This document shows positions 2,533-59,455 of a stretch of DNA of 64,000 nucleotides, in pieces (position 1 is the first letter of the stretch; each line of letters opens with the position of its first letter). A program made the position numbers and the translations under genes. The notes below the pieces were generated by a model. It saw only the letters and a list, made by a program, of their open reading frames with translations, made no database searches and was not told the DNA's origin. This DNA is from Methanorbis rubei (lineage in GTDB: Archaea; Halobacteriota; Methanomicrobia; Methanomicrobiales; Methanocorpusculaceae), in contig NZ_JAWDKB010000002.1 in NCBI RefSeq assembly GCF_032714495.1, positions 62,001 to 126,000 on the forward strand, given 5' to 3'.

Positions 2533-3705
2533 ATGAACTTCGATGATCTGATCCCAAGCTCAGACAGGACGCATCATCTCTACGAAGGGATACCGATCTA
2601 TGAACGAAGATTCAAAGATATCGGGCCGTTCAAATTTCCGGGACTCGCGGTTGCCTGCGATGCGGCAGGGGCATGTCACATAACATTCTCCGGAGAGCCT
2701 GCGTATGCTGAGCGATACGACTGGACCGGAGACTTTGCCGAAGGAGTTGCCGCAGTTAGGGACGCAAACGGCCGCTACTTTCACATCGATCAGAACGGAA
2801 AACCGATCGCTTACGACACGTATCTGTATGCGACGGATTTTGTCGCTGGTTCTGCGGTTGTGTATCATGAAACATTCGGGGCGACCCACATCACCACCGC
2901 AGGCGAGCTGCTTTACGGAGACTGGTACTTTGATGCCCGGCCTTTCAAAGAAGGAGTCGCCGAAGTTCGGGATGAAAACGGCTGGCTGATGATTGATCCG
3001 GCAGGAACAGTCCTTGGCCAGGCCAAAAAGCCTGTAGATATATTTCCCGTCCACGGAAACGTCCGCCGCGTTCTTTCGGAAAACCAGATCCCCAAAGTTT
3101 TGCAAACCTCAGACTGGGACGCGGCAGCAGTTCTGATGCGGCATGGAGAACGCCAGCCGTTCATCAAAGGAGAGCCCGGCTCAACAAAAGTTCTGACCGC
3201 ACGTGGAAGAAGGCAGGCGCGGGAGTTTGGAGCTGCACTTCCTGATGTGCCTGTCTGCACATACGCAAGCCCGATGGTTCGATGCGTGCAGACCGGCAAT
3301 GAAATTCTTGCAGGAGCAAAAGCATCCGGAACAACAGAAGAGAGTCTGATGCTTGGAACGCCGAGCGCGTATGTTGCAGACGATGAACTGGTCCGGGAGT
3401 TTTATGTGGTAAATCCGGTTAAGACGATGAGCCTCCGCTATGTCGCAGGCGAAACCCTGCCCGGGCATTATCCTGCGGATGTCGGTACCCGCCGGATGTT
3501 TGATTTTGTTTCAGACACGCTTGCCGACGGAGAAATTTCCGTCTGCGTCACGCATGATGCATGGATTGTTCCTTTCGTTTCCCTCCTAACCGGCTATGAT
3601 TTTACGAATGACTGGCCCGACTTTCTGGACGGCTGCATTCTGATGCGGCGTGACGGGAAATATTTCCTGTGGTGGCGGGGAAGAGAGTATCCGATAGCTC
3701 GGTGA
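2533..3705 (+). CDS. WG-repeat protein fused to a histidine phosphatase domain
   Basis: 390 residues in two parts. Residues about 15-165 hold WG-type beta repeats (for example FAEGVAAVRDANGRYFHID and FKEGVAEVRDENGWLMID), each with an F.EG.A.VRD.NG pattern. Residues about 195-385 form a histidine phosphatase (phosphoglycerate mutase-like) domain. Its RHG motif, with the nucleophilic His, is R203-H204-G205-E206, and a second His lies in VCVTHDAW near the C-terminus. Family knowledge gives phosphomonoester hydrolysis or transfer through a phosphohistidine; the substrate is unknown. The WG part may bind a ligand or partner. It starts 12 bases after gap, so the two may be cotranscribed. The fusion is unusual. 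Confidence 0.8.
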   Translation: MNFDDLIPSSDRTHHLYEGIPIYERRFKDIGPFKFPGLAVACDAAGACHITFSGEPAYAERYDWTGDFAEGVAAVRDANGRYFHIDQNGKPIAYDTYLYATDFVAGSAVVYHETFGATHITTAGELLYGDWYFDARPFKEGVAEVRDENGWLMIDPAGTVLGQAKKPVDIFPVHGNVRRVLSENQIPKVLQTSDWDAAAVLMRHGERQPFIKGEPGSTKVLTARGRRQAREFGAALPDVPVCTYASPMVRCVQTGNEILAGAKASGTTEESLMLGTPSAYVADDELVREFYVVNPVKTMSLRYVAGETLPGHYPADVGTRRMFDFVSDTLADGEISVCVTHDAWIVPFVSLLTGYDFTNDWPDFLDGCILMRRDGKYFLWWRGREYPIAR

Positions 3706-12459: not shown

Positions 12460-12507
12460 GAAACTATCTTTCACAATCTTTATTTACCAAGAGGGATTTC
12501 TCCATAG

Positions 12508-12528
12508 TTCCACTCGAAACAAAGGGGT
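12508..12528 (+). promoter_or_regulatory. Origin recognition box (ORB), hel308 upstream copy
   Basis: tccactcgaaacaaaggggt (12509-12528), preceded by t, is identical to the 21-base box at 17963. It lies in the 92-base gap between the KH gene and the likely hel308 start, about 25 bases after a TATA-like ctttattta at 12478. It therefore overlaps the expected transcription start. Orc1/Cdc6 binding here is inferred. Confidence 0.8.
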
Positions 12529-12551: not shown

Positions 12552-14735
12552 ATGAAAATAGACTCACTGCCCATTCCAATTTCCCTGCGCACGAAGTATT
12601 CGGCTCTGGGGATCACCGAACTGTATCCGCCGCAGGCGAAATGCGTAGAGGCGGGTCTGTTTAATCGAAAAAACCAGCTGGTGGCAATTCCTACCGCGTC
12701 CGGCAAGACACTTGTCGCAGAAATGGCGATGCAAAAGGAGATTTCGGATGGGGGAAAGTGTCTCTATATCGTTCCCTTGAAAGCGCTTGCCGCAGAAAAA
12801 TATGAAGATTTTTCAGGAAAAGAAGTAAAAGTTGGTATCGCGACAGGGGATCCTGATCAGCGCGACGAATATCTGGGCCGCTATGACATCATTGTCGCGA
12901 CGTCGGAGAAGACCGACTCACTGCTTCGCAACCGTGCAGAGTGGCTGAAGCGCGTTTCCCTACTTGTCGTGGACGAGATTCATCTGATCGGCGACCCTTC
13001 CCGGGGTGCGACACTTGAGATGGTGATAGCAAAGCTGCGGTACCAAAACCCGAACCTTCAGATCATCGGCCTCTCGGCAACGATGGGCAACCCTGAGGAG
13101 CTGGCGAACTGGCTGAACGCCGCGCTCGTCACGAGCGAGTGGCGGCCGGTTGACCTCCGCGAAGGTGTCTACTATAATGGTGCGATCCACTTCCATGGTT
13201 CGGAACGAATTCTGCAGACGCCGAAAAAAGATGATGACCTGAATCTTTTACTGGACACGGCTGAGGAAGGAGGCCAGTGTCTGGTGTTTGTTTCATCCCG
13301 CCGTTCTGCAGAAGCCTACGCAAAACGGGCCGCAGTTGTGCTGAAGAAAAAGTCCGAAGCTCTTGATTTGTATGCAGAAAAAATTGCCAAGGCCGACACA
13401 ACTCCTTCAGGAAAAGTTCTGGCAAACTCGGTGAAGAACGGAGCCGCGTTTCATCATGCAGGTCTCCCCCGCGCTGCCCGTGAAGCAGTCGAAGAGGGAT
13501 TCCGGAAAGGAGAGATTCAGGTCATCGCCTCAACTCCGACGCTTGCTGCCGGCCTGAACCTTCCTGCAAGGCGCGTGATCATCCGCGATTACCAGCGCTA
13601 CGAGGCAGGTGTCGGCATGAATCCGATTCCTGTGATGGAGTACCGACAGATGGCAGGGCGTGCCGGACGGCCGAGGCTCGATCCGTACGGAGAAGCGGTG
13701 CTGATAGCAAAGGACCGCGATGCAGTGGACGTGCTGTTTGAAAAGTTCATCGATGCACCGGCAGAAAACATCGCGTCCCAGTGTCAGAAGGAGAATGAGT
13801 TGCGGAACCACTTGCTTGCGCTGATCACAACAGGTTTTGCAAAGAACCGTGCAGAGCTTGACGGATTCATGGAAAAATCCTTCTATGCAAGTCAGAAGGC
13901 GGTACACCGAAGACTTGACAGAAATATCGGCAAGGCACTCTCCTATCTGATCGAGTCAGGCATGATCACCGAAGAGACCGGGGGAGAACTCCTTGGAACT
14001 TCGTTTGGAGTTCTTGCGTCGCGCCTCTATCTGGATCCTGAGACCGCATCGCTTATCCGCGATATTCTTGGAAAGCAGGAGACCTTTTCTGCGTTTGGCA
14101 TGCTGCATCTGTTGTGCATGACGCCTAATATGTTCAGATTTTATCTGAAGGCGTCTGATGAGCGGTTGGTGGATGAGGTGTTCTCTGAGCGAGGCGATGA
14201 GTTGTGGTGCGAGGAGCTTTCCGAGGAATTTTTTGCGGCCGTGAAGACAGCGCTCGTTGCCGAGGCATGGTGTGAGGAGGTGCCGGAAGACGTTATCTGC
14301 GAGAACTTTGGCGTGGGTGCGGGGGATATTCATGCGGTGGTGGAAAATCTCAGGTGGCTGATGCATGCATCAGCCAGAATTGCACATGAGTTTGCGCCGC
14401 GGTTTGACACGGACGTCCGGGACTTAGAGATACGGATCGAGAACGGTGTGAAAGAGGAGCTCCTGCCCCTCATTACCCTAAGGGGAATCGGTCGAATTCG
14501 TGCGAGGAGATTGTTTGACCGGGGCATTACGACACCCGAGGATCTGCTCTCAGCAGAGCCGAAGGATGTTGTCGGAATTCTCGGCACAGTGCTTACGAAG
14601 AGTGTTCTTGAACAGGCAGCAAAAAAAACCGGACGAACGTTGGACGCAGTCCCTCTTCTCATCGAGGAGGAAGCGGTTCCCGTGAAAGCGAGTGAAACAA
14701 AACCGCAGAAGACCCTGTTTGATTTTGGAGAGTAA
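12552..14735 (+). CDS. hel308: Hel308 family ATP-dependent DNA helicase
   Basis: 727 residues from the ATG at 12552. An upstream ATG at 12456 overlaps the previous stop and would translate the origin box, so I reject it. The superfamily 2 motifs are present: a Q-motif region (YPPQAKCVEAGLF), Walker A PTASGKT (Lys52), DEIH box (Asp141 to His144), LSATMGN, STPTLAAGLNLPARRVI and the QMAGRAGR motif VI. A winged helix, ratchet domain and C-terminal HhH region (LRGIGRIRARRLFDRGI) follow. The C-terminus has a PIP-like QKTLFDFGE, probably a PCNA-binding box. Hel308 acts at stalled forks with 3'-5' polarity. cgi121 starts 4 bases after the stop. Confidence 0.95.
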   Translation: MKIDSLPIPISLRTKYSALGITELYPPQAKCVEAGLFNRKNQLVAIPTASGKTLVAEMAMQKEISDGGKCLYIVPLKALAAEKYEDFSGKEVKVGIATGDPDQRDEYLGRYDIIVATSEKTDSLLRNRAEWLKRVSLLVVDEIHLIGDPSRGATLEMVIAKLRYQNPNLQIIGLSATMGNPEELANWLNAALVTSEWRPVDLREGVYYNGAIHFHGSERILQTPKKDDDLNLLLDTAEEGGQCLVFVSSRRSAEAYAKRAAVVLKKKSEALDLYAEKIAKADTTPSGKVLANSVKNGAAFHHAGLPRAAREAVEEGFRKGEIQVIASTPTLAAGLNLPARRVIIRDYQRYEAGVGMNPIPVMEYRQMAGRAGRPRLDPYGEAVLIAKDRDAVDVLFEKFIDAPAENIASQCQKENELRNHLLALITTGFAKNRAELDGFMEKSFYASQKAVHRRLDRNIGKALSYLIESGMITEETGGELLGTSFGVLASRLYLDPETASLIRDILGKQETFSAFGMLHLLCMTPNMFRFYLKASDERLVDEVFSERGDELWCEELSEEFFAAVKTALVAEAWCEEVPEDVICENFGVGAGDIHAVVENLRWLMHASARIAHEFAPRFDTDVRDLEIRIENGVKEELLPLITLRGIGRIRARRLFDRGITTPEDLLSAEPKDVVGILGTVLTKSVLEQAAKKTGRTLDAVPLLIEEEAVPVKASETKPQKTLFDFGE

Positions 14736-15267: not shown

Positions 15268-16386
15268 CTATACAGGCATCGGTCTTCTTCCAAGTACATA
15301 CATTGGAATTTTACCGCAAATTTCTTGAACACTCAGAGAAATTTCATCCAAATAATTATCATTCATAACAATGATGCCGGATATCTGCATATGATGTAAT
15401 TTTTGAGGAGAAATAATTGGATGTGCTGTTTTCGGCATATATCTTCCTTGTTTTTTTGGATTAATGTCAACAACTGCGGAAATGGTTTGCCGTTCCGGAT
15501 CAATCTCGCGTAAAAAGGTCGCTCCTTTCGCACCTGCTCCCCAAATCACAAAATAACCTGACGAAACGAGAGACTTCCATGCAGAAACACATTCCGAGAA
15601 CTGCAAAACTGGTGGTGAAGACAGGTGATGCGAACTTGTATCTGGAGAACGAAGGTCCTCAAGTTTAGCAATAACATAACAGTACTGATCTCCAAAAAAT
15701 GTTCCTGTACGTAACACATCAGAGAACAAGCCTGTTAAGGCCGGCAGGGAAAAATAGTTACAGTGCTCAAAGAACACATCATAAAATGCATTTTTCTCAA
15801 CAATCCAGCGAAAATCAGGGACTTCAATATACAGTAATCCCTGATAATCATTGGCCTCTGCAATAGACTGAAGAAATTGAAGGGGATGTGAAATATGTTC
15901 AAGGACATGACGCAAGACAATCAGATCAGCTTTATCAAAAGGCTGCTGCGCAACTGTATCATGAGAATAATATTCCTTAATGATTCTGGGATCCATTCCC
16001 TCATATGCCGGATCATATCCATGGACAGTATATCCAAGCTCTCCCAGTTTCATGAGAAAAGTTGCTTTTCCACAACCAATTTCTACGATATGTGACTCTT
16101 GGGACAGATGGGGAATGAGAATATCGCAAACATTCTGGAGATGAGACTGAAACATAGGAGAGTACCCCTGCTCATTCTGATAATGTTCGTCATATTCCAA
16201 GAGAGATGGATCAAAAGTTGCATTCCAGACAAATCCACAATTTTCGCAAAAATACAATGAAACATTTCCACAGATCACAGATTCAGCAATTTGTTCGGTA
16301 GGATATGCCTTATTCTGAAATGCAGGAACATTCATTGCAGAGTACAAAGGCGTGATCTGTCCTGAAGAGCAGATAGGGCAGACCAT
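15268..16386 (-). CDS. SAM-dependent C-methyltransferase-like protein
   Basis: 372 residues from the ATG at 16386, with gaggt 8 bases upstream. The N-terminal zinc-binding part has CPIC and YFCENCGF (two CxxC pairs). The methyltransferase core has motif I VEIGCGKATFL and a post-motif RHVLEHISHPLQFL. The C-terminal part GYFVIWGAGAKGATFLRE plus VVDINPKKQGRYMP is the Rossmann-like end found in sugar C-methyltransferases. Homologues methylate nucleotide-linked deoxysugars. In archaea they usually sit in surface-glycan clusters, but here the gene is isolated. Codon use is more AT-rich than its neighbours, which suggests transfer. Confidence 0.85.
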   Translation of the reverse strand: MVCPICSSGQITPLYSAMNVPAFQNKAYPTEQIAESVICGNVSLYFCENCGFVWNATFDPSLLEYDEHYQNEQGYSPMFQSHLQNVCDILIPHLSQESHIVEIGCGKATFLMKLGELGYTVHGYDPAYEGMDPRIIKEYYSHDTVAQQPFDKADLIVLRHVLEHISHPLQFLQSIAEANDYQGLLYIEVPDFRWIVEKNAFYDVFFEHCNYFSLPALTGLFSDVLRTGTFFGDQYCYVIAKLEDLRSPDTSSHHLSSPPVLQFSECVSAWKSLVSSGYFVIWGAGAKGATFLREIDPERQTISAVVDINPKKQGRYMPKTAHPIISPQKLHHMQISGIIVMNDNYLDEISLSVQEICGKIPMYVLGRRPMPV

Positions 16387-16585
16387 CACATAACCTCTTG
16401 AGAGGGGAGGGAATGGACAGGAAATACTGAAAGAAAGTGAATTAGGATATACTTGGGTGGGGGGTGCAATTAACACTCAATACATCAAACATTTTTTAAA
16501 CTATGGTCGTGAATCCATATCAACCTATTGACTCGATATCCCATTTCAGTTTGTGAATATGTGAATCAGGTACAACTCAATAAGT

Positions 16586-17603: not shown

Positions 17604-17724
17604 GATATTAGGCAGTTTGTATCAAACATATAAGATAAACCATCTTAACACTGCAAAGAAATTGAAAAATTGATCTCATCTGAATATCTTTTTTTCAAAA
17701 TTTTTGCAATGTTTTCTAGAAAAG

Positions 17725-17751
17725 TCCCCCACCCCTTTGTTTCGAGTGGAA
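17725..17751 (-). promoter_or_regulatory. Origin recognition box, left copy with outward G-run
   Basis: acccctttgtttcgagtgga (17731-17750) is the exact reverse complement of the box at 17963. The C-run tccccc before it extends the match to 27 bases. The box points its G-rich end away from the AT-rich block. Confidence 0.9.
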
Positions 17752-17822
17752 CATATGGAAGGTATCTTTGCAAAAAAGATACTTCATACGAAGTCCCACT
17801 ATTCATTAGTAAGTCTACCTCT

Positions 17823-17900
17823 CATAATATAAAACTTTTCTTTTTAAACATTGTAAAAATTTTTTGTTGATTATAAAAATAAAAAAACTATAAGAAAAAT
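17823..17900. other. AT-rich unwinding element of the origin
   Basis: About 78 bases that are almost entirely A and T (aatataaaacttttc, then attataaaaataaaaaaac). It is centred between the two inverted boxes and is the likely duplex-unwinding site. Confidence 0.75.
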
Positions 17901-17962
17901 GCGAGCCTGAAAGATGAGAAAATGTCTGGGTAGCGCAATTTTCGCGAATCACACACTCGACT

Positions 17963-17989
17963 TTCCACTCGAAACAAAGGGGTGGGGGA
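17963..17989 (+). promoter_or_regulatory. Origin recognition box, right copy with outward G-run
   Basis: tccactcgaaacaaaggggt (17964-17983), preceded by t, is followed by ggggga, mirroring the left box. It is oriented toward orc1/cdc6. Confidence 0.9.
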
Positions 17990-18070
17990 GTATTACTTGT
18001 GAACTATCCATATCTTGGTATTTGAGTTCTGAATTCAAGTATTTTTTTCTTGGGATCTCTGACAGGCACA

Positions 18071-18091
18071 AACCCTTTTTTCCAGTGGAAA
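18071..18091 (-). promoter_or_regulatory. Degenerate origin box near the orc1 promoter
   Basis: aacccttttttccagtggaa is a weaker match to the box in reverse orientation; its ttccagtggaaa core recalls the Sulfolobus ORB core. It sits just before the TATA-like ggtatattaata (18096-18107) that probably drives orc1, so it could allow autoregulation. Confidence 0.5.
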
Positions 18092-18147
18092 CAGCGGTAT
18101 ATTAATAGGAACAACAGCGTAATGGTAATCTAAGGATCTGGTATGTC

Positions 18148-19404
18148 ATGTCTGAGGAACCATTCAAATCTACAGGACTTTTCAAAAAATACACAATAAA
18201 AAATAAAATTTTTCAGAATCGTGAAGTTCTCCGCCACAGTTACAGCCCTCGTGAACTGCCGCACAGGGTAGATCAGATTGACTCGATTGCAGTAATTCTT
18301 GCCCCTGCACTGCAGGGAGCAACCCCTTCAAACATCCTCATCTATGGAAAAACCGGTACCGGAAAGACTGCCACCGTCAAGTTTGTCGGATCCGAACTTG
18401 AGAATGAAAGCTCGGAATTTTCCAGATGCAGAATGGTTCACCTCAACTGCGAAACAATCGACACTCAGTACCGGGTACTTGCGCAGATTGCAAATCATAT
18501 CAGTGGTCATGACCTGAAACCAAGCGACCGCGCCAAAAATACCATCCCCGCAACCGGCTGGCACACCGATCAGGTCTACTCAGAACTCAAGAATGTGCTT
18601 GAGCAGGCGGGCGGTCTGCAGATCATCGTGCTGGACGAGATCGACAAGCTGGTCAAGAAAAGTGGTGACGACACCCTCTATAACCTGACCAGAATCAACA
18701 GTGATCTGAAAAATGCCAGAGTGAGTATCATCGGCATCTCTAACGATCTCACCTTCAAAGACTTCCTTGACCCCCGCGTGCTTTCCTCTCTCTCTGAAGA
18801 AGAACTCGTGTTCCCTCCTTATGACGCAATTCAGCTGCAGGACATTCTCCACCAGCGTGCAGAGATGGCATTTCTTCCAGACTCCGTGAACGAGGATGTC
18901 ATCGCCTTGTGCGCGGCGCTTGCCGCTCAGGAGCATGGTGACGCACGCCGCGCACTGGATCTTCTCCGAGTTTCCGGTGAACTTGCCGAACGCGAGTCTT
19001 CAGAACAGGTCCTTGAAGTGCATGTCCGCCGCGCCCAGGAAAATATTGAGACCGACACCATGAGCGAGTGCGTCCAGACCCTTCCGCGCCAGGGAAAGAT
19101 GGTGCTCTGCTCCATGCTTTTAGTCTCCTCCGCAGGCCAGAAGGTGTTCACGAGCGGCAGCGTCATAAACGTCTACCGCGAACTTGCCAAAGAGATGGAT
19201 GTCGAACCCCTGACGCATCGCAGGGTTTCTGACCTCATCAATGAACTCAACATGCTCGGTATCGTGACCGCCCGCGTCGTCTCACACGGCCGGCATGGCA
19301 GGACAACAGAAATCTATTTCAACAGTCCCACTAATCAGATACGTACAGTAGTAATGAACGATCCAAGACTTCGGGAGTGCAGCATTTTACATCCACTCCT
19401 GTAA
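18148..19404 (+). CDS. orc1: Orc1/Cdc6 replication initiator
   Basis: 418 residues, the usual length. The AAA+ part has Walker A GKTGTGKT (67-74) and Walker B VLDEID (Asp163, Glu164). The initiator-specific helix lies near residues 105-125. Sensor 1 IIGISNDL and sensor 2 GDARRALDLLR are present. A C-terminal winged helix (residues about 330-418) ends in RHGRTTEIYFN. It binds origin boxes and loads MCM. The start at 18148 is preceded by aagga at about 18132. The gene next to its own origin is typical. A TATA-like element and a degenerate box upstream suggest self-regulation. Confidence 0.97.
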   Translation: MSEEPFKSTGLFKKYTIKNKIFQNREVLRHSYSPRELPHRVDQIDSIAVILAPALQGATPSNILIYGKTGTGKTATVKFVGSELENESSEFSRCRMVHLNCETIDTQYRVLAQIANHISGHDLKPSDRAKNTIPATGWHTDQVYSELKNVLEQAGGLQIIVLDEIDKLVKKSGDDTLYNLTRINSDLKNARVSIIGISNDLTFKDFLDPRVLSSLSEEELVFPPYDAIQLQDILHQRAEMAFLPDSVNEDVIALCAALAAQEHGDARRALDLLRVSGELAERESSEQVLEVHVRRAQENIETDTMSECVQTLPRQGKMVLCSMLLVSSAGQKVFTSGSVINVYRELAKEMDVEPLTHRRVSDLINELNMLGIVTARVVSHGRHGRTTEIYFNSPTNQIRTVVMNDPRLRECSILHPLL

Positions 19405-19946: not shown

Positions 19947-21110
19947 ATGAGAAATTTTGTGTCACGGATGGCCGGAGAGCTTCCTCCGTCCGGCATCCGG
20001 AAATTTTTTGATCTGCTGCTCACGATGGACAACGTGATCAGCCTTGGCGTTGGCGAACCTGATTTCGATACGCCGTGGAACATCTCGCAGGTTGCCATCT
20101 CATCCATTGAGAAAGGCATGACGATGTACACCTCAAACCGCGGTCTTGCGGAACTCCGGGAACTGCTCTCAGCAGATCTTGACCAGCGCTATCATACGAA
20201 GTACTGCCCGGAAACCGAGATGATTGTAACGACCGGAGTCTCTGAAGGCCTGGACATCGCGGTCCGTGCAGTTGTTGATCCGGGAGACGAGGTCCTCGTG
20301 GTTGATCCATGCTTTGTCTCCTATCAGGCAGAAGTTCTGATGGCAGGAGGCAGGCCGAAGACTCTACCCTGCTCGGCACAGGACGGGTTCAAGGTAACTC
20401 CTGATGTGCTGATGGAATCAATCACGCCGAAGTCCAAAGTTCTGCTGCTCAACTTCCCGACCAACCCGACTGGCGGCGTGATGGGAAAGGATGATCTCCA
20501 AGCGATCGCTGATATCATCATCGATCACGACCTGCTGGTCATCTCTGATGAAGTGTATGCAGAACTGACGTATGATGGTCATCATGTCTCGACCGCTGCG
20601 ATTGACGGTCTCTGGGAGAGGACGATCACGCTGAACGGATTTTCCAAAGCCTATGCCATGACCGGCTGGCGGCTCGGCTATCTGTGTGCTCCAAAGGAGA
20701 TGACTGATGCTGCGCTGAAGATTCATCAGTATGTGATGATGTCTGCTCCGACTGCGTCGCAGTTTGCCGGCATTGAAGCATTGAAGAATGGTGAGGAGGC
20801 AAAGAATGAGATGATCGCCGAGTACAGAATCCGGCGAAATCTTTTCGTCAAAGGACTCAACGATGTTGGTCTCCCCTGCCATCTGCCGAAAGGTGCCTTC
20901 TATGCATTTCCCTCGGTTGAAGGAACAGGACTTAGCGATGAGGAGTTTGCCGAACGTCTTCTGCGTGAGCAGCATGTTGCGGTGGTTCCCGGAAGCGCGT
21001 TTGGAAAGAACGGACGCGGTCATGTGCGGACCTGTTATGCGGTGGATCGGGCGAAACTTTCCGAGGCTGTACGTCGGATTGGAATCTTTGTTGAGTCGCT
21101 GCACAGCTAA
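19947..21110 (+). CDS. Class I/II PLP-dependent aminotransferase (AspC/AlaT-like)
   Basis: 387 residues from the ATG at 19947; an upstream TTG at 19938 is weaker given gaagg at 19932. Fold type I features include VISLGVGEPDFDTPW, NFPTNPTGGVM, the Asp-Tyr segment VISDEVYAEL, the PLP-lysine motif FSKAYAMTGWRLGYL, and the final Arg near GRGHVRTCYAVDR that binds the substrate carboxylate. It is probably an aspartate or aromatic aminotransferase, but specificity cannot be read from sequence alone. It is downstream of and likely cotranscribed with the Lrp gene. Confidence 0.92.
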   Translation: MRNFVSRMAGELPPSGIRKFFDLLLTMDNVISLGVGEPDFDTPWNISQVAISSIEKGMTMYTSNRGLAELRELLSADLDQRYHTKYCPETEMIVTTGVSEGLDIAVRAVVDPGDEVLVVDPCFVSYQAEVLMAGGRPKTLPCSAQDGFKVTPDVLMESITPKSKVLLLNFPTNPTGGVMGKDDLQAIADIIIDHDLLVISDEVYAELTYDGHHVSTAAIDGLWERTITLNGFSKAYAMTGWRLGYLCAPKEMTDAALKIHQYVMMSAPTASQFAGIEALKNGEEAKNEMIAEYRIRRNLFVKGLNDVGLPCHLPKGAFYAFPSVEGTGLSDEEFAERLLREQHVAVVPGSAFGKNGRGHVRTCYAVDRAKLSEAVRRIGIFVESLHS

Positions 21111-21118
21111 ACTATTTA

Positions 21119-21139
21119 ACCCCTTTGTTTCGAGTGGAG
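21119..21139 (-). promoter_or_regulatory. Origin recognition box, polD small subunit upstream copy
   Basis: acccctttgtttcgagtgga (21119-21138) is identical to the left origin box. It sits in the 57-base gap between the aminotransferase and the polD small-subunit gene, directly before a TATA-like gtttatatgc (21142-21151). Confidence 0.85.
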
Positions 21140-21167
21140 GAGTTTATATGCTCCCCACGATTTTTTC

Positions 21168-22637
21168 ATGCAGAAGAGAGAGATTGTTGCACGATTCCTT
21201 GAGGCGGGACTTCTGGTTCATCCGGATGTTGTCACGTACATCAGCGAAAGCGGCGGCTCCGGAGTCATTGAAGGAATTATCAGCTCGCTTCCTTCAGGAA
21301 TTTCGGTTGTAACCACCAAAGAGGTTCCCGGCATGACCGCCCCGCGGCTTGACAAACTCAACGTCGGCGTGAGCCCAGTTCCCGAAATTCTTGCGGGCCG
21401 TGAAGGCTCTTCGATACCAACGGCAAACCCTGAGGAGTCGTTTGCTCTGTTCCGCGACCGGTATGATACGCTTGCTGCAATGATGCGGCCCCGTGTGAGC
21501 CCGATTCCGATCGAAGCCCTGGTCAAACAGAACAGCAGATTCTCTGACACTGATATTGGTGCGATCGGTATGGTTGTCGAGGGCTCTACGAGTGCGAAGG
21601 GTCACCGGATTGTGGAGATCGAAGATCCTACCGGAACGATCAAAGTTCTGTTCAACAAAAATCGCGAAGGGTTTGATGAGGCGGAAAAAATTATTCCTGA
21701 CGAAGTCATTGGTGTCCGCGGAAAACTTTCCCGGGACAATGGCGGAGGTGGAGGAGGAATGATATTTTCTGATACTTTGTTCAGGCCTGAAATTCCGCTG
21801 ACGCATGTGATCTCTCCGTCCAAAGAGCCGGGCAAAGCGGTGTTCATCTCTGATGTGCATGTAGGCAGCGACACGTTCCTTCCTGATGCATGGAACCGTT
21901 TTGCTTCATGGCTCGACAAAACTCCTGAGGTCAGGTATCTTTTGATCGCTGGAGACGTGGTGGACGGCATCGGCATTTATCCGAATCAGGACAAGGAGCT
22001 GCACATCAAAACGATCTATGAACAGTACGATGCCGTAGGCGAGATGCTTTCGGCCCTGCCATCCCATCTTCAGATCATTCTCTCGCCCGGCAACCATGAT
22101 GCGGTGCGGGCAGCTGAACCCCAGCCTGCTCTTCCGGAGGAGTTCAGAACCCAGTTCCCAACCAACGTGACGTTCGTTGAAAATCCTGCGATGGTAAACA
22201 TTCAGTCGGTGAATGTTCTGATGTATCATGGCAGAAGTATTGATGATCTCATCAAGTTCATCCCGGGCTCGAGCTATGAAAAGCCTGGTGATATTATGGA
22301 GGCGATGCTGAAGCGCCGCCATCTTGGCCCGATCTATGGCCAGCGCACACCGCTTCTCTCAACACCCGCAGACAATTTAGTTATTCGCGATGTTCCTGAT
22401 ATTTTACACACCGGGCACGTTCACATTACAGATGTGGTGAACTACCGCGGAGTTCTCGGCATCAATGCAGGAACCTGGCAGGCTCAGACCTCGTTCCAGA
22501 AACAGATGAACATCACGCCGACGCCCGCTGAGGCGGTCGTGGTGGATCTTGCAACGATGCAGCATGAGATCCTGCGTTTTCTTGACCCGCCCACGGAAAA
22601 GCGGAGCACACTGAATTTCGCGGAAAAACATCACTGA
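21168..22637 (+). CDS. polB: DNA polymerase D small subunit (DP1), 3'-5' exonuclease
   Basis: 489 residues. An N-terminal helical domain (KREIVARFLEAGLLVHPDVV) and a linker come first. An OB-fold follows near residues 125-200 (IGMVVEGSTSAKGHRIVEIE). The calcineurin-like phosphoesterase has FISDVHVGSD (Asp229, His231), a GDVVDGIG motif, SPGNHDAV, YHGRS and LHTGHVHITD. Euryarchaeal DP1 is the proofreading subunit of the replicative polymerase PolD; the large subunit is not in this window. The final codons (PPTEKRSTLNFAEKHH) lie inside the left arm of an inverted repeat, so the natural C-terminus seems to have been replaced or extended by the repeat. Confidence 0.95.
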   Translation: MQKREIVARFLEAGLLVHPDVVTYISESGGSGVIEGIISSLPSGISVVTTKEVPGMTAPRLDKLNVGVSPVPEILAGREGSSIPTANPEESFALFRDRYDTLAAMMRPRVSPIPIEALVKQNSRFSDTDIGAIGMVVEGSTSAKGHRIVEIEDPTGTIKVLFNKNREGFDEAEKIIPDEVIGVRGKLSRDNGGGGGGMIFSDTLFRPEIPLTHVISPSKEPGKAVFISDVHVGSDTFLPDAWNRFASWLDKTPEVRYLLIAGDVVDGIGIYPNQDKELHIKTIYEQYDAVGEMLSALPSHLQIILSPGNHDAVRAAEPQPALPEEFRTQFPTNVTFVENPAMVNIQSVNVLMYHGRSIDDLIKFIPGSSYEKPGDIMEAMLKRRHLGPIYGQRTPLLSTPADNLVIRDVPDILHTGHVHITDVVNYRGVLGINAGTWQAQTSFQKQMNITPTPAEAVVVDLATMQHEILRFLDPPTEKRSTLNFAEKHH

Positions 22638-57982: not shown

Positions 57983-59455
57983 TTAGCTCAGATGATACTT
58001 TTCCATCAGTTCCGCACGTTTTCCTGATGCTTCCAGATCTGCGAGACCTCTGTTGATGACATCCTGCAGAGGAATGTTGCCGTTCTGTATCGCAACGCCG
58101 CCGCGGTCTCCGGTTTCATACGTGGAGACGATCTCAATGTCTGTCTCATTTGCAATTACCTTAAGCAGTGGTTCGCTTACCGCGATGCAGTCAATCTCTC
58201 CTGCGTTGCATGCGTCTAGGAGATCGTTGTAGGATGCGTACTCTTTGATAACTCCGGCTTTGACCATTTTCTCGTACTGGTCCTTGCCGAACTGTTCTGT
58301 GAGCCATTCTTCGATGATGGTCCTTGTGATAAAACCGGTGACAGCTGTGCCGGACTCAAACTGGGTTTTTGTGATCAGATGATCTCCTGCACATCCGATT
58401 CCAAGGCCGGCAGTATAGTACGGTGTTGAGAAGGTAACTCTTGACTCCCGATCATCAGTGATGATCATGCCTGAGTACCACATATCGATTTTACCGGTGA
58501 CGATCGCGTTGATGTTCTTTGACCATGGAATATCCACATAGGTCACGGTAAATCCGTTCCTTTCTGCAATCCATTCAAGTGCCTCAATATCATATCCGGT
58601 AAGGTTTCCATCTTCATCAAGGTAAGTGAACGGCCAGTTTTCGGTTGAGATACCGACCCGGTACTCGTCCTTCAGCTGGGCCACGTAATGTTTCTGCAGA
58701 ATTTTGTCGTACTCGCCTGACGCGACGACGTTCTTGAGACCTGCATTGATTTTTGCGATCAGCTCTTCGTTTGATTTGTTTGAGGCAAATACCACATCTT
58801 TTTTATCGGAGAGGTATCCAAGGAAGGTGAGGGGTGAGTACTCGCGAAGTTTGTCGCCGAGAACATTATCTGCACCAATGACTGCTTCTGCTTCGTTGGT
58901 CAGAACTGCGTAGAGGGTGGCGTCCTGCGTGTATTTGATGATGATCTTCTTCTCATCGATCATTTTGTTGAATGTTTCCGTACCGAAGTGTTCTTTGAGC
59001 CAGGTTTCGTAGATACTTCCTCTCTCACAAGTGATAGTAACGTTTCCCGCAAGAACATCATCCATGGTGACGTTGGCATTTTTTCTGATGACAACTGCAT
59101 ATCCGGCAGTGATGTACGGGTCAGAGAGCAGATATTTTTTCTGATGTTCGGGTGTTTTGACGGTGGCGGTTATCAGATCAATTTCGCCGACGGTGAGTTT
59201 TGACGGACAGTCTGCATGCTCCCAGAATTCATAGATGAACTCAATACCCTGATCTTTTCCGATCGCATTGAGGAGATCGACGTCAATTCCATACGCCTCT
59301 TCGGTCTGCAAGATCTGTATGGAAAATGGAGCAAATGACGAGCTGATACCTACAGTATAGACTGGTTTTTCCTGTATGCATCCGGCTGCAACAACTGCAG
59401 CGCCGAGAACCAGGAGTACCATGATGAAAATTGGAAGGAGAGTTTTTTTCGCCAC
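57983..59455 (-). CDS. Tandem solute-binding lipoprotein (two SBP_bac_3 domains), cassette 1
   Basis: 490 residues from a GTG at 59455. aggtgatt upstream matches the 16S-tail type ribosome binding site, and the paralogue at 61696 starts in the same way. The lipobox is VVAAGC. Two type 2 periplasmic binding domains follow: the first from VYTVGISSSFAPFSI, the second from EYRVGISTENWPFTYLDEDG. Both show the amino-acid binding pattern (IDLITATVKTPEH and IDMWYSGMIITDDR). There is no permease or ATPase nearby. It may bind amino acids or related solutes and pass the signal to the Cache partner. Confidence 0.85.
   Translation of the reverse strand: MAKKTLLPIFIMVLLVLGAAVVAAGCIQEKPVYTVGISSSFAPFSIQILQTEEAYGIDVDLLNAIGKDQGIEFIYEFWEHADCPSKLTVGEIDLITATVKTPEHQKKYLLSDPYITAGYAVVIRKNANVTMDDVLAGNVTITCERGSIYETWLKEHFGTETFNKMIDEKKIIIKYTQDATLYAVLTNEAEAVIGADNVLGDKLREYSPLTFLGYLSDKKDVVFASNKSNEELIAKINAGLKNVVASGEYDKILQKHYVAQLKDEYRVGISTENWPFTYLDEDGNLTGYDIEALEWIAERNGFTVTYVDIPWSKNINAIVTGKIDMWYSGMIITDDRESRVTFSTPYYTAGLGIGCAGDHLITKTQFESGTAVTGFITRTIIEEWLTEQFGKDQYEKMVKAGVIKEYASYNDLLDACNAGEIDCIAVSEPLLKVIANETDIEIVSTYETGDRGGVAIQNGNIPLQDVINRGLADLEASGKRAELMEKYHLS

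Follow-up and report, generated by a model that had tools for sequence, protein, structure and literature searches.

A predicted Orc1/Cdc6-dependent replication origin in Methanorbis rubei and related boxes at the hel308, DP1 and orc1 promoters as candidate sites of control by Orc1

Archaeal replication origins contain origin recognition boxes (ORBs), to which Orc1 binds, and MCM is loaded by Orc1 next to an A+T-rich element. In bacteria, DnaA ties origin control to the supply of replication proteins. The systems closest to the locus studied here are described in four reports (PMC4164010, PMC3936714, PMC9738581, and PMC2643942). The ORB of Methanomicrobia has been written as TCCA[GC]T[GT]GAAA[CT][AG]A[AT]GGGGT (PMC4164010). 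An extended G-string of the ORB has been called halophile-specific and was reported to be essential there, and a group of ORBs past cdc6E of Haloarcula hispanica exerts negative control on oriC2, probably through titration (PMC3936714). In Thermococcales, ORB repeats are found in the DP1 gene (Berthon et al. 2008, PMC2643942).

We analyzed a window of 64,000 nucleotides from Methanorbis rubei (C2:62001-126000); the genome searched is 1.83 Mb in 15 contigs and 96% complete. The window contains an inverted pair of boxes upstream of an orc1/cdc6 gene, and the box, TCCACTCGAAACAAAGGGGT, is one position off the Methanomicrobia motif. The left box with its G-extension occupies 17725-17751 (- strand, TTCCACTCGAAACAAAGGGGTGGGGGA) and the right one, its exact inverted copy, 17963-17989 (+ strand); both were found by inverted-repeat and 20-mer searches and recur in relatives. 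The earlier note had claimed boxes at 17731 and 17963 matching over 21 bases and extending to 27 through outward G-runs, and the two segments are indeed exact reverse complements over 27 nt (the 20-base box plus GGGGTGGGGGA). At both boxes, the G-extension GGGGTGGGGG is at the outer end and the G-runs point outward. The inverted arms reach 32 nt with 94% complementarity (17720-17751 and 17963-17994, spacing 211 nt), and an arithmetic estimate puts the chance expectation of such a pair in 544 bp at ~1e-11. The 211 nt separating the boxes are 70% A+T, compared with 51% for the whole window, and include a 78-base block (17822-17899) identified by base composition, presumably the DNA unwinding element. 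This block is A+T-rich as described before, and "almost pure A+T" was a little strong for 69 of 78 bases (88%). The orc1 start at 18148 is 165 nt past the core box, the distance given previously.

In 15 genomes of the genus, the most A+T-rich 60 nt between the boxes reach 80-97% A+T. Alignment of the 11 genus members with both moaB and orc1 placed shows conservation of the boxes and of a stretch running into the A+T-rich block (17800-17858, TTCATTAGTAA...TATAAAACTTTTCTTTT), and the remainder drifts. The left box is followed, before the A+T-rich block, by a short hairpin (17762-17782, GTATCTT...AAGATAC), recognisable only in near relatives in this alignment. A second inverted pair (17697-17714 and 17846-17863, 18 nt, 94% complementary) has its arms outside the left box and inside the A+T-rich block, respectively. 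An Rfam search of the window returned no match.

The orc1 gene (18148-19404, + strand), called as an open reading frame with a profile match, hits the NCBIfam equivalog NF001625 with 581 bits against a cut-off of 501. Its product aligns best with the Orc1 chains 2qby_A and 2v1u_A, and is 94-96% identical to the proteins of Methanocorpusculum faecipullorum, Methanocorpusculum petauri, another Methanocorpusculum MAG, and a MAG labelled Methanocalculaceae. In initiator Orc1, four arginines of the wing domain touch the ORB, and non-initiators lack them at these places (PMC9738581). When these residue numbers were transferred through the alignment, three of the four arginines were found to be kept in the window's Orc1, with His at the third position. 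The genome encodes a second Orc1/Cdc6 paralog (L002:565-1716, contig C1), in which none of the four is present, and no ORB-like inverted repeats were found in the 3.2 kb examined around it. A second origin at this paralog was rejected on both counts, and the protein is perhaps a non-initiator Orc1.

The origin proposed in the earlier note at 17.6-18.15 kb is borne out by the ORB motif, the inverted pair, the A+T-rich block, the adjacent initiator gene, conservation across the order, and a turn in T-A skew; the region is almost certainly an Orc1/Cdc6-dependent replication origin, ordinary in kind. Cumulative skew, which had been suggested as a check, agrees in its T-A form and is uninformative in its GC form. 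On the window's own contig, the cumulative T-A minimum is at window position 19954, 2 kb from the boxes, and in a complete relative (G005) the T-A and keto minima are +3.2 kb and +2.9 kb from the contig start, where its origin boxes lie. The GC curve of the own contig lacks a minimum at the site, bottoming at contig base 3,353 and peaking at 58,152, and that of G005 has none at the origin (minimum at +170.8 kb), so GC skew was dropped as an origin test and T-A skew was used instead. The keto minimum of the own contig is at contig base 106,280, or about 44,280 in the window. The missing GC turn would suit a reading in which the paired boxes at 17.7-18.0 kb only regulate orc1 and the true origin is elsewhere. 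We consider this very improbable, because two genomes show a T-A skew turn no more than 2-3 kb away, the 96%-complete genome has no second box cluster, and the other Orc1 paralog has neither the repeats nor the arginines. This origin would locate the replication start to within a few hundred bases in a genus whose genome is small.

The box is not confined to the origin pair. Searching the genome with the 20-mer TTCCACTCGAAACAAAGGGG, allowing up to three mismatches, gave four copies, at window positions 12508 (+), 17732 (-), 17963 (+), and 21120 (-), all within 8.6 kb; the reversed control of this 20-mer gave no matches genome-wide at the same threshold. The half pattern TTCCANTNGAAAC has five genome sites: three of the four boxes, a half-box in the orc1 promoter at 18080, and a solitary match on contig C6, which is about what chance would yield. 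The earlier reading was sound on the origin and incomplete beyond it: it covered two of the four copies, but neither the two outlying ones nor the half-box of the orc1 promoter. Box matches were found in 24 of 25 genus genomes (reversed control 0) and in 132 of 135 order genomes (reversed control 1). The comparisons below use the 66 of these 25 genus and 135 order genomes from which the region was retrieved; family (f) and genus (g) labels come from the genome searches, the window belongs to f1/g1, and upstream-box counts cover only those genomes in which the gene start was placed and sufficient sequence lay upstream of it.

We estimate a probability of roughly 0.78 that the region is an origin used by Orc1 and that Orc1 also occupies and represses the promoters of hel308, DP1, and orc1. 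The first outlying box (12508-12527, + strand, from the 20-mer search) is at the promoter of hel308, a fork-repair helicase gene with its ATG at 12552 (12552-14735, + strand, open reading frame and profile match), next to cgi121. It has a T-rich tail in place of the G-extension, and a TATA-like element (12479-12486) starts ~30 nt before it. This box is present in each of the 15 genus members whose hel308 start was placed, at -42 or -43, with no mismatches in 13 and one in two. In these 15, 17 of 19 box columns are invariant; in the flanks, this holds for 8 of 45 columns upstream and 3 of 24 downstream. In 12 of the 15, the TATA-like element begins 29-30 nt ahead of the box, which places the start of the box at about the transcription start, and this position suggests repression of hel308.

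In the order, a box with up to three mismatches occurs within 120 nt before hel308 in 42 of 66 genomes (f1 20/20, f2 1/4, f3 5/5, f4 4/4, f5 7/11, f6 5/22); outside g1 most of these boxes are at -24, near the start codon. An opposed half-box is found at about -90 to -110 of hel308 in 25 of 66 genomes, and the combined count of genomes with a full box or half-box is 54 of 66. Control upstream regions gave the full box in 0/66 (aminotransferase), 0/65 (lrp), 0/59 (cgi121), 0/15 (KH), 0/14 (rio1), 0/10 (pyrophosphatase), and 1/4 (the gene at 15268-16476). The corresponding half-box counts were 0/66, 3/65, 0/59, 0/15, 0/14, and 0/10 for the first six. The 26 of 51 found upstream of moaB are expected, because that region is the origin. 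In f6 (e.g. L079, L084, L085, L110, L113), the opposed half-box reads TTTCCANTGGA and is ~90-110 nt before hel308 in 16 of 22 genomes; where the downstream box is kept too, the two bracket the hel308 promoter region.

Because hel308 is near the origin in most genomes, a part in origin architecture is hard to set aside for its box. In G013, where contig ends put hel308 at least 27 kb away from orc1 on a different contig, its box is kept with one mismatch; it is also kept in G007, again on another contig and at least about 9.5 kb away, and at 10.8 kb in G066 and G071. At 43-44 kb, the same offset holds a box with three mismatches in G077 and four in G075. In G007 and G013 (L033, L039, L032, L038), GCAAC replaces GAAAC in the hel308 box and also in most origin boxes, which may reflect co-evolution with Orc1. 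Outside the order, 20 regions upstream of cgi121 were sampled from further families in the phylum. Of these, 12 contained hel308, with neither a full box (up to four mismatches) nor a half-box (up to one mismatch) upstream of it. A class-level box search returned matches from the same order only, and a spread of the hel308 box beyond the order was rejected for this sample. A predicted extra origin of Haloferax volcanii has three ORB motifs beside purO and cgi (PMC4164010), which is a lead if cgi is cgi121, but the 12 outside-order genomes gave none.

At orc1 itself, a pattern search found a half-box, TTCCAGTGGAAAC, without a G-run (18080-18092, + strand) directly upstream of a TATA-like element (18098-18105), and we presume it to be autoregulatory. 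This reduction to a half-box beside the TATA-like element is the state in g1. Outside g1, a third box is often found 77-104 nt before orc1, running into a T-rich or TATA-like tail. The tails divide the boxes into two kinds. In the six bases after GGGGN, the G+C fraction is 0.73 (n=61) and 0.69 (n=83) for the origin boxes, compared with 0.33 (n=42) at hel308 and 0.17 (n=35) at orc1; boxes past the aminotransferase gene, by strand, have 0.37 (n=49) and 0.42 (n=4, + boxes). These counts include only boxes with up to three mismatches and come from related sequences, not independent events.

The second outlying box (21120-21139, - strand, from the 20-mer search) is between the aminotransferase gene and the gene for the DNA polymerase D small subunit, DP1 (21168-22637, + strand, ATG at 21168, open reading frame and profile match), just upstream of a TATA-like element (21143-21150). 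A box in this position relative to the TATA-like element is found in 12 of 14 g1 genomes. In both g1 genomes without it, DP1 starts 2 nt past the aminotransferase gene, too close for a promoter to fit in between. L015 and L016 have the same overlap of DP1 and aminotransferase gene and no box, and L022 has a short gap and no box. Families f2-f5 have one box, and in some cases two to four, past the aminotransferase gene, with DP1 elsewhere where examined. In f1/g2, DP1 follows the aminotransferase gene and the box is found in 0 of 5; 20 further DP1 upstream pieces and three more (L123-L125) also had no box. Since boxes occur without DP1 in f2-f5 and DP1 without a box in f1/g2, the box is probably older than its link to DP1, and may be an older distal origin element. 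A DP1-specific operator, as would be read from this genus, is weakened by these two groups and by the box-less DP1 upstream regions. Retention of the motif at the candidate target promoters, at whatever distance from the origin, is seen for hel308 and is mixed for DP1.

Several f3 genomes have a second inverted pair past the aminotransferase gene, with boxes 217-219 bp apart and G-runs outward, ~3.2 kb from the orc1-side box (in orc1 orientation, L046:7841-8077, L048:7819-8054, L049:7246-7483, and L050:7196-7432). This pair resembles a duplicate of the one at the origin. In f2 and f5 (L056:7215-7871, L071, L072, L075), there are often two to four boxes of the same orientation in this region, mostly ~180-290 bp apart. 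Subtraction gives a constant spacing of 3,156 bp between origin-side and distal boxes in many f3 genomes; we did not use it as evidence, because the intervening genes are near-constant in length and the reference box differs between families.

The outlying boxes could serve the origin rather than transcription, by titrating Orc1 or by folding the origin region. This would account for the one to four boxes past the aminotransferase gene in f2-f5, mostly in one orientation and without DP1, and for the clustering of all four boxes here within 8.6 kb; it also has a precedent in the ORB cluster downstream of cdc6E, which negatively controls oriC2 in Haloarcula hispanica (PMC3936714). We nevertheless regard it as unlikely, if the most serious competitor: the hel308 box keeps its offset from the gene at 10.8 kb (G066, G071) and at least 27 kb (G013) from orc1, the DP1 box is lost where DP1 abuts the preceding gene, and a single box is a weak titrator.

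Another protein might instead read the outlying boxes, for example the Lrp/AsnC-type regulator whose gene, throughout the order, sits between orc1 and the aminotransferase gene. The palindromic core TTTCCA-S-TGGAAA would suit such a dimeric regulator. Against it, hel308 keeps the full box including the non-palindromic AAAGGGG half, the box equals the origin box here, and lrp itself has no box (0/65), which makes this candidate improbable. We give equally little credence to a main role of the hel308 box in the 5' leader or in ribosome binding, with its GGGG pairing with 16S rRNA. At -24, GGGGT is indeed a few nucleotides before the ATG in many genomes outside g1, but in g1 the box is 42-43 nt upstream, too distant, and yet best conserved, and the TCCAnT half is left unexplained.

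Our preferred explanation is that Orc1 acts both at the origin and at nearby promoters. Orc1 would bind the two inverted G-extended boxes flanking the A+T-rich block, where the DNA would open and the MCM helicase would be loaded. It would also occupy the promoters of hel308, DP1, and orc1 and, sitting at or beside the core promoter, would repress these genes, so that the supply of the initiator and of fork-handling enzymes would be tied to the level or state of Orc1. A T-rich tail in place of the G-extension may separate promoter use from origin use. Judged part by part, a role in transcription is slightly favored for the sites at hel308 and orc1 and doubtful for the box at DP1. It is a tentative generalization, a little short of even odds, that Orc1 in Methanomicrobiales is a dedicated regulator of just a few genes, namely orc1 and hel308, and in Methanocorpusculum also DP1, with G-extended boxes at the origin and T-tailed boxes at promoters. 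If this is true, the level or nucleotide state of the initiator would set the amounts of a fork-repair helicase and a polymerase subunit. In the titles and abstract openings surveyed, with few subscription papers among them, no ORBs at hel308 and no Orc1 regulon in Methanomicrobiales were reported.

Compared with known systems, the origin shares with the Orc1/Cdc6 oriC of Methanomicrobia in DoriC / Ori-Finder 2 the ORB motif, the inverted pair, the A+T-rich block, and the intergenic location by orc1/cdc6 (PMC4164010). It differs in that C replaces G/T at one position of the motif, the box runs into a second G-run (GGGGTGGGGG), and copies precede hel308 and DP1. Haloarcula hispanica oriC1 likewise has two inverted ORBs with outer G-runs and an A+T-rich middle (PMC3936714), whereas the G-string here is in a methanogen whose nearest named relatives are Methanocorpusculum, not haloarchaea; the G-extended ORB, termed halophile-specific, thus occurs in methanogens too. 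The Haloarcula oriC2-cdc6E region has extra ORBs downstream of the initiator gene, as in f2-f5, and the same-orientation boxes past the aminotransferase gene in f2 and f5 resemble this cluster. It holds 11 ORBs in 722 bp (PMC3936714), in contrast to one box at a gene start here; our genome search gave single boxes at 12508 and 21120 and no dense cluster of the oriC2D or datA kind away from the origin.

Saccharolobus islandicus Orc1-2, a transcription regulator in DNA damage, is also an Orc1-family protein found at promoters, including its own. It is a non-initiator with the motif ANTTTC (PMC9738581), whereas the sites here match the ORB of the initiator itself, and the window's Orc1, with three of four ORB-contacting arginines, is unlike such non-initiators. 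In Thermococcales, initiator boxes are likewise associated with DP1 near cdc6, in the gene there (PMC2643942) and upstream of the start codon here, where hel308 has one as well. Beyond the origin, Orc1 may be a local transcription switch. If it reads the hel308, orc1, and DP1 boxes, an archaeal initiator would couple the control of its origin directly with the provision of replication and fork-repair proteins and, being initiator and transcription factor in one, would be the archaeal analog of DnaA.
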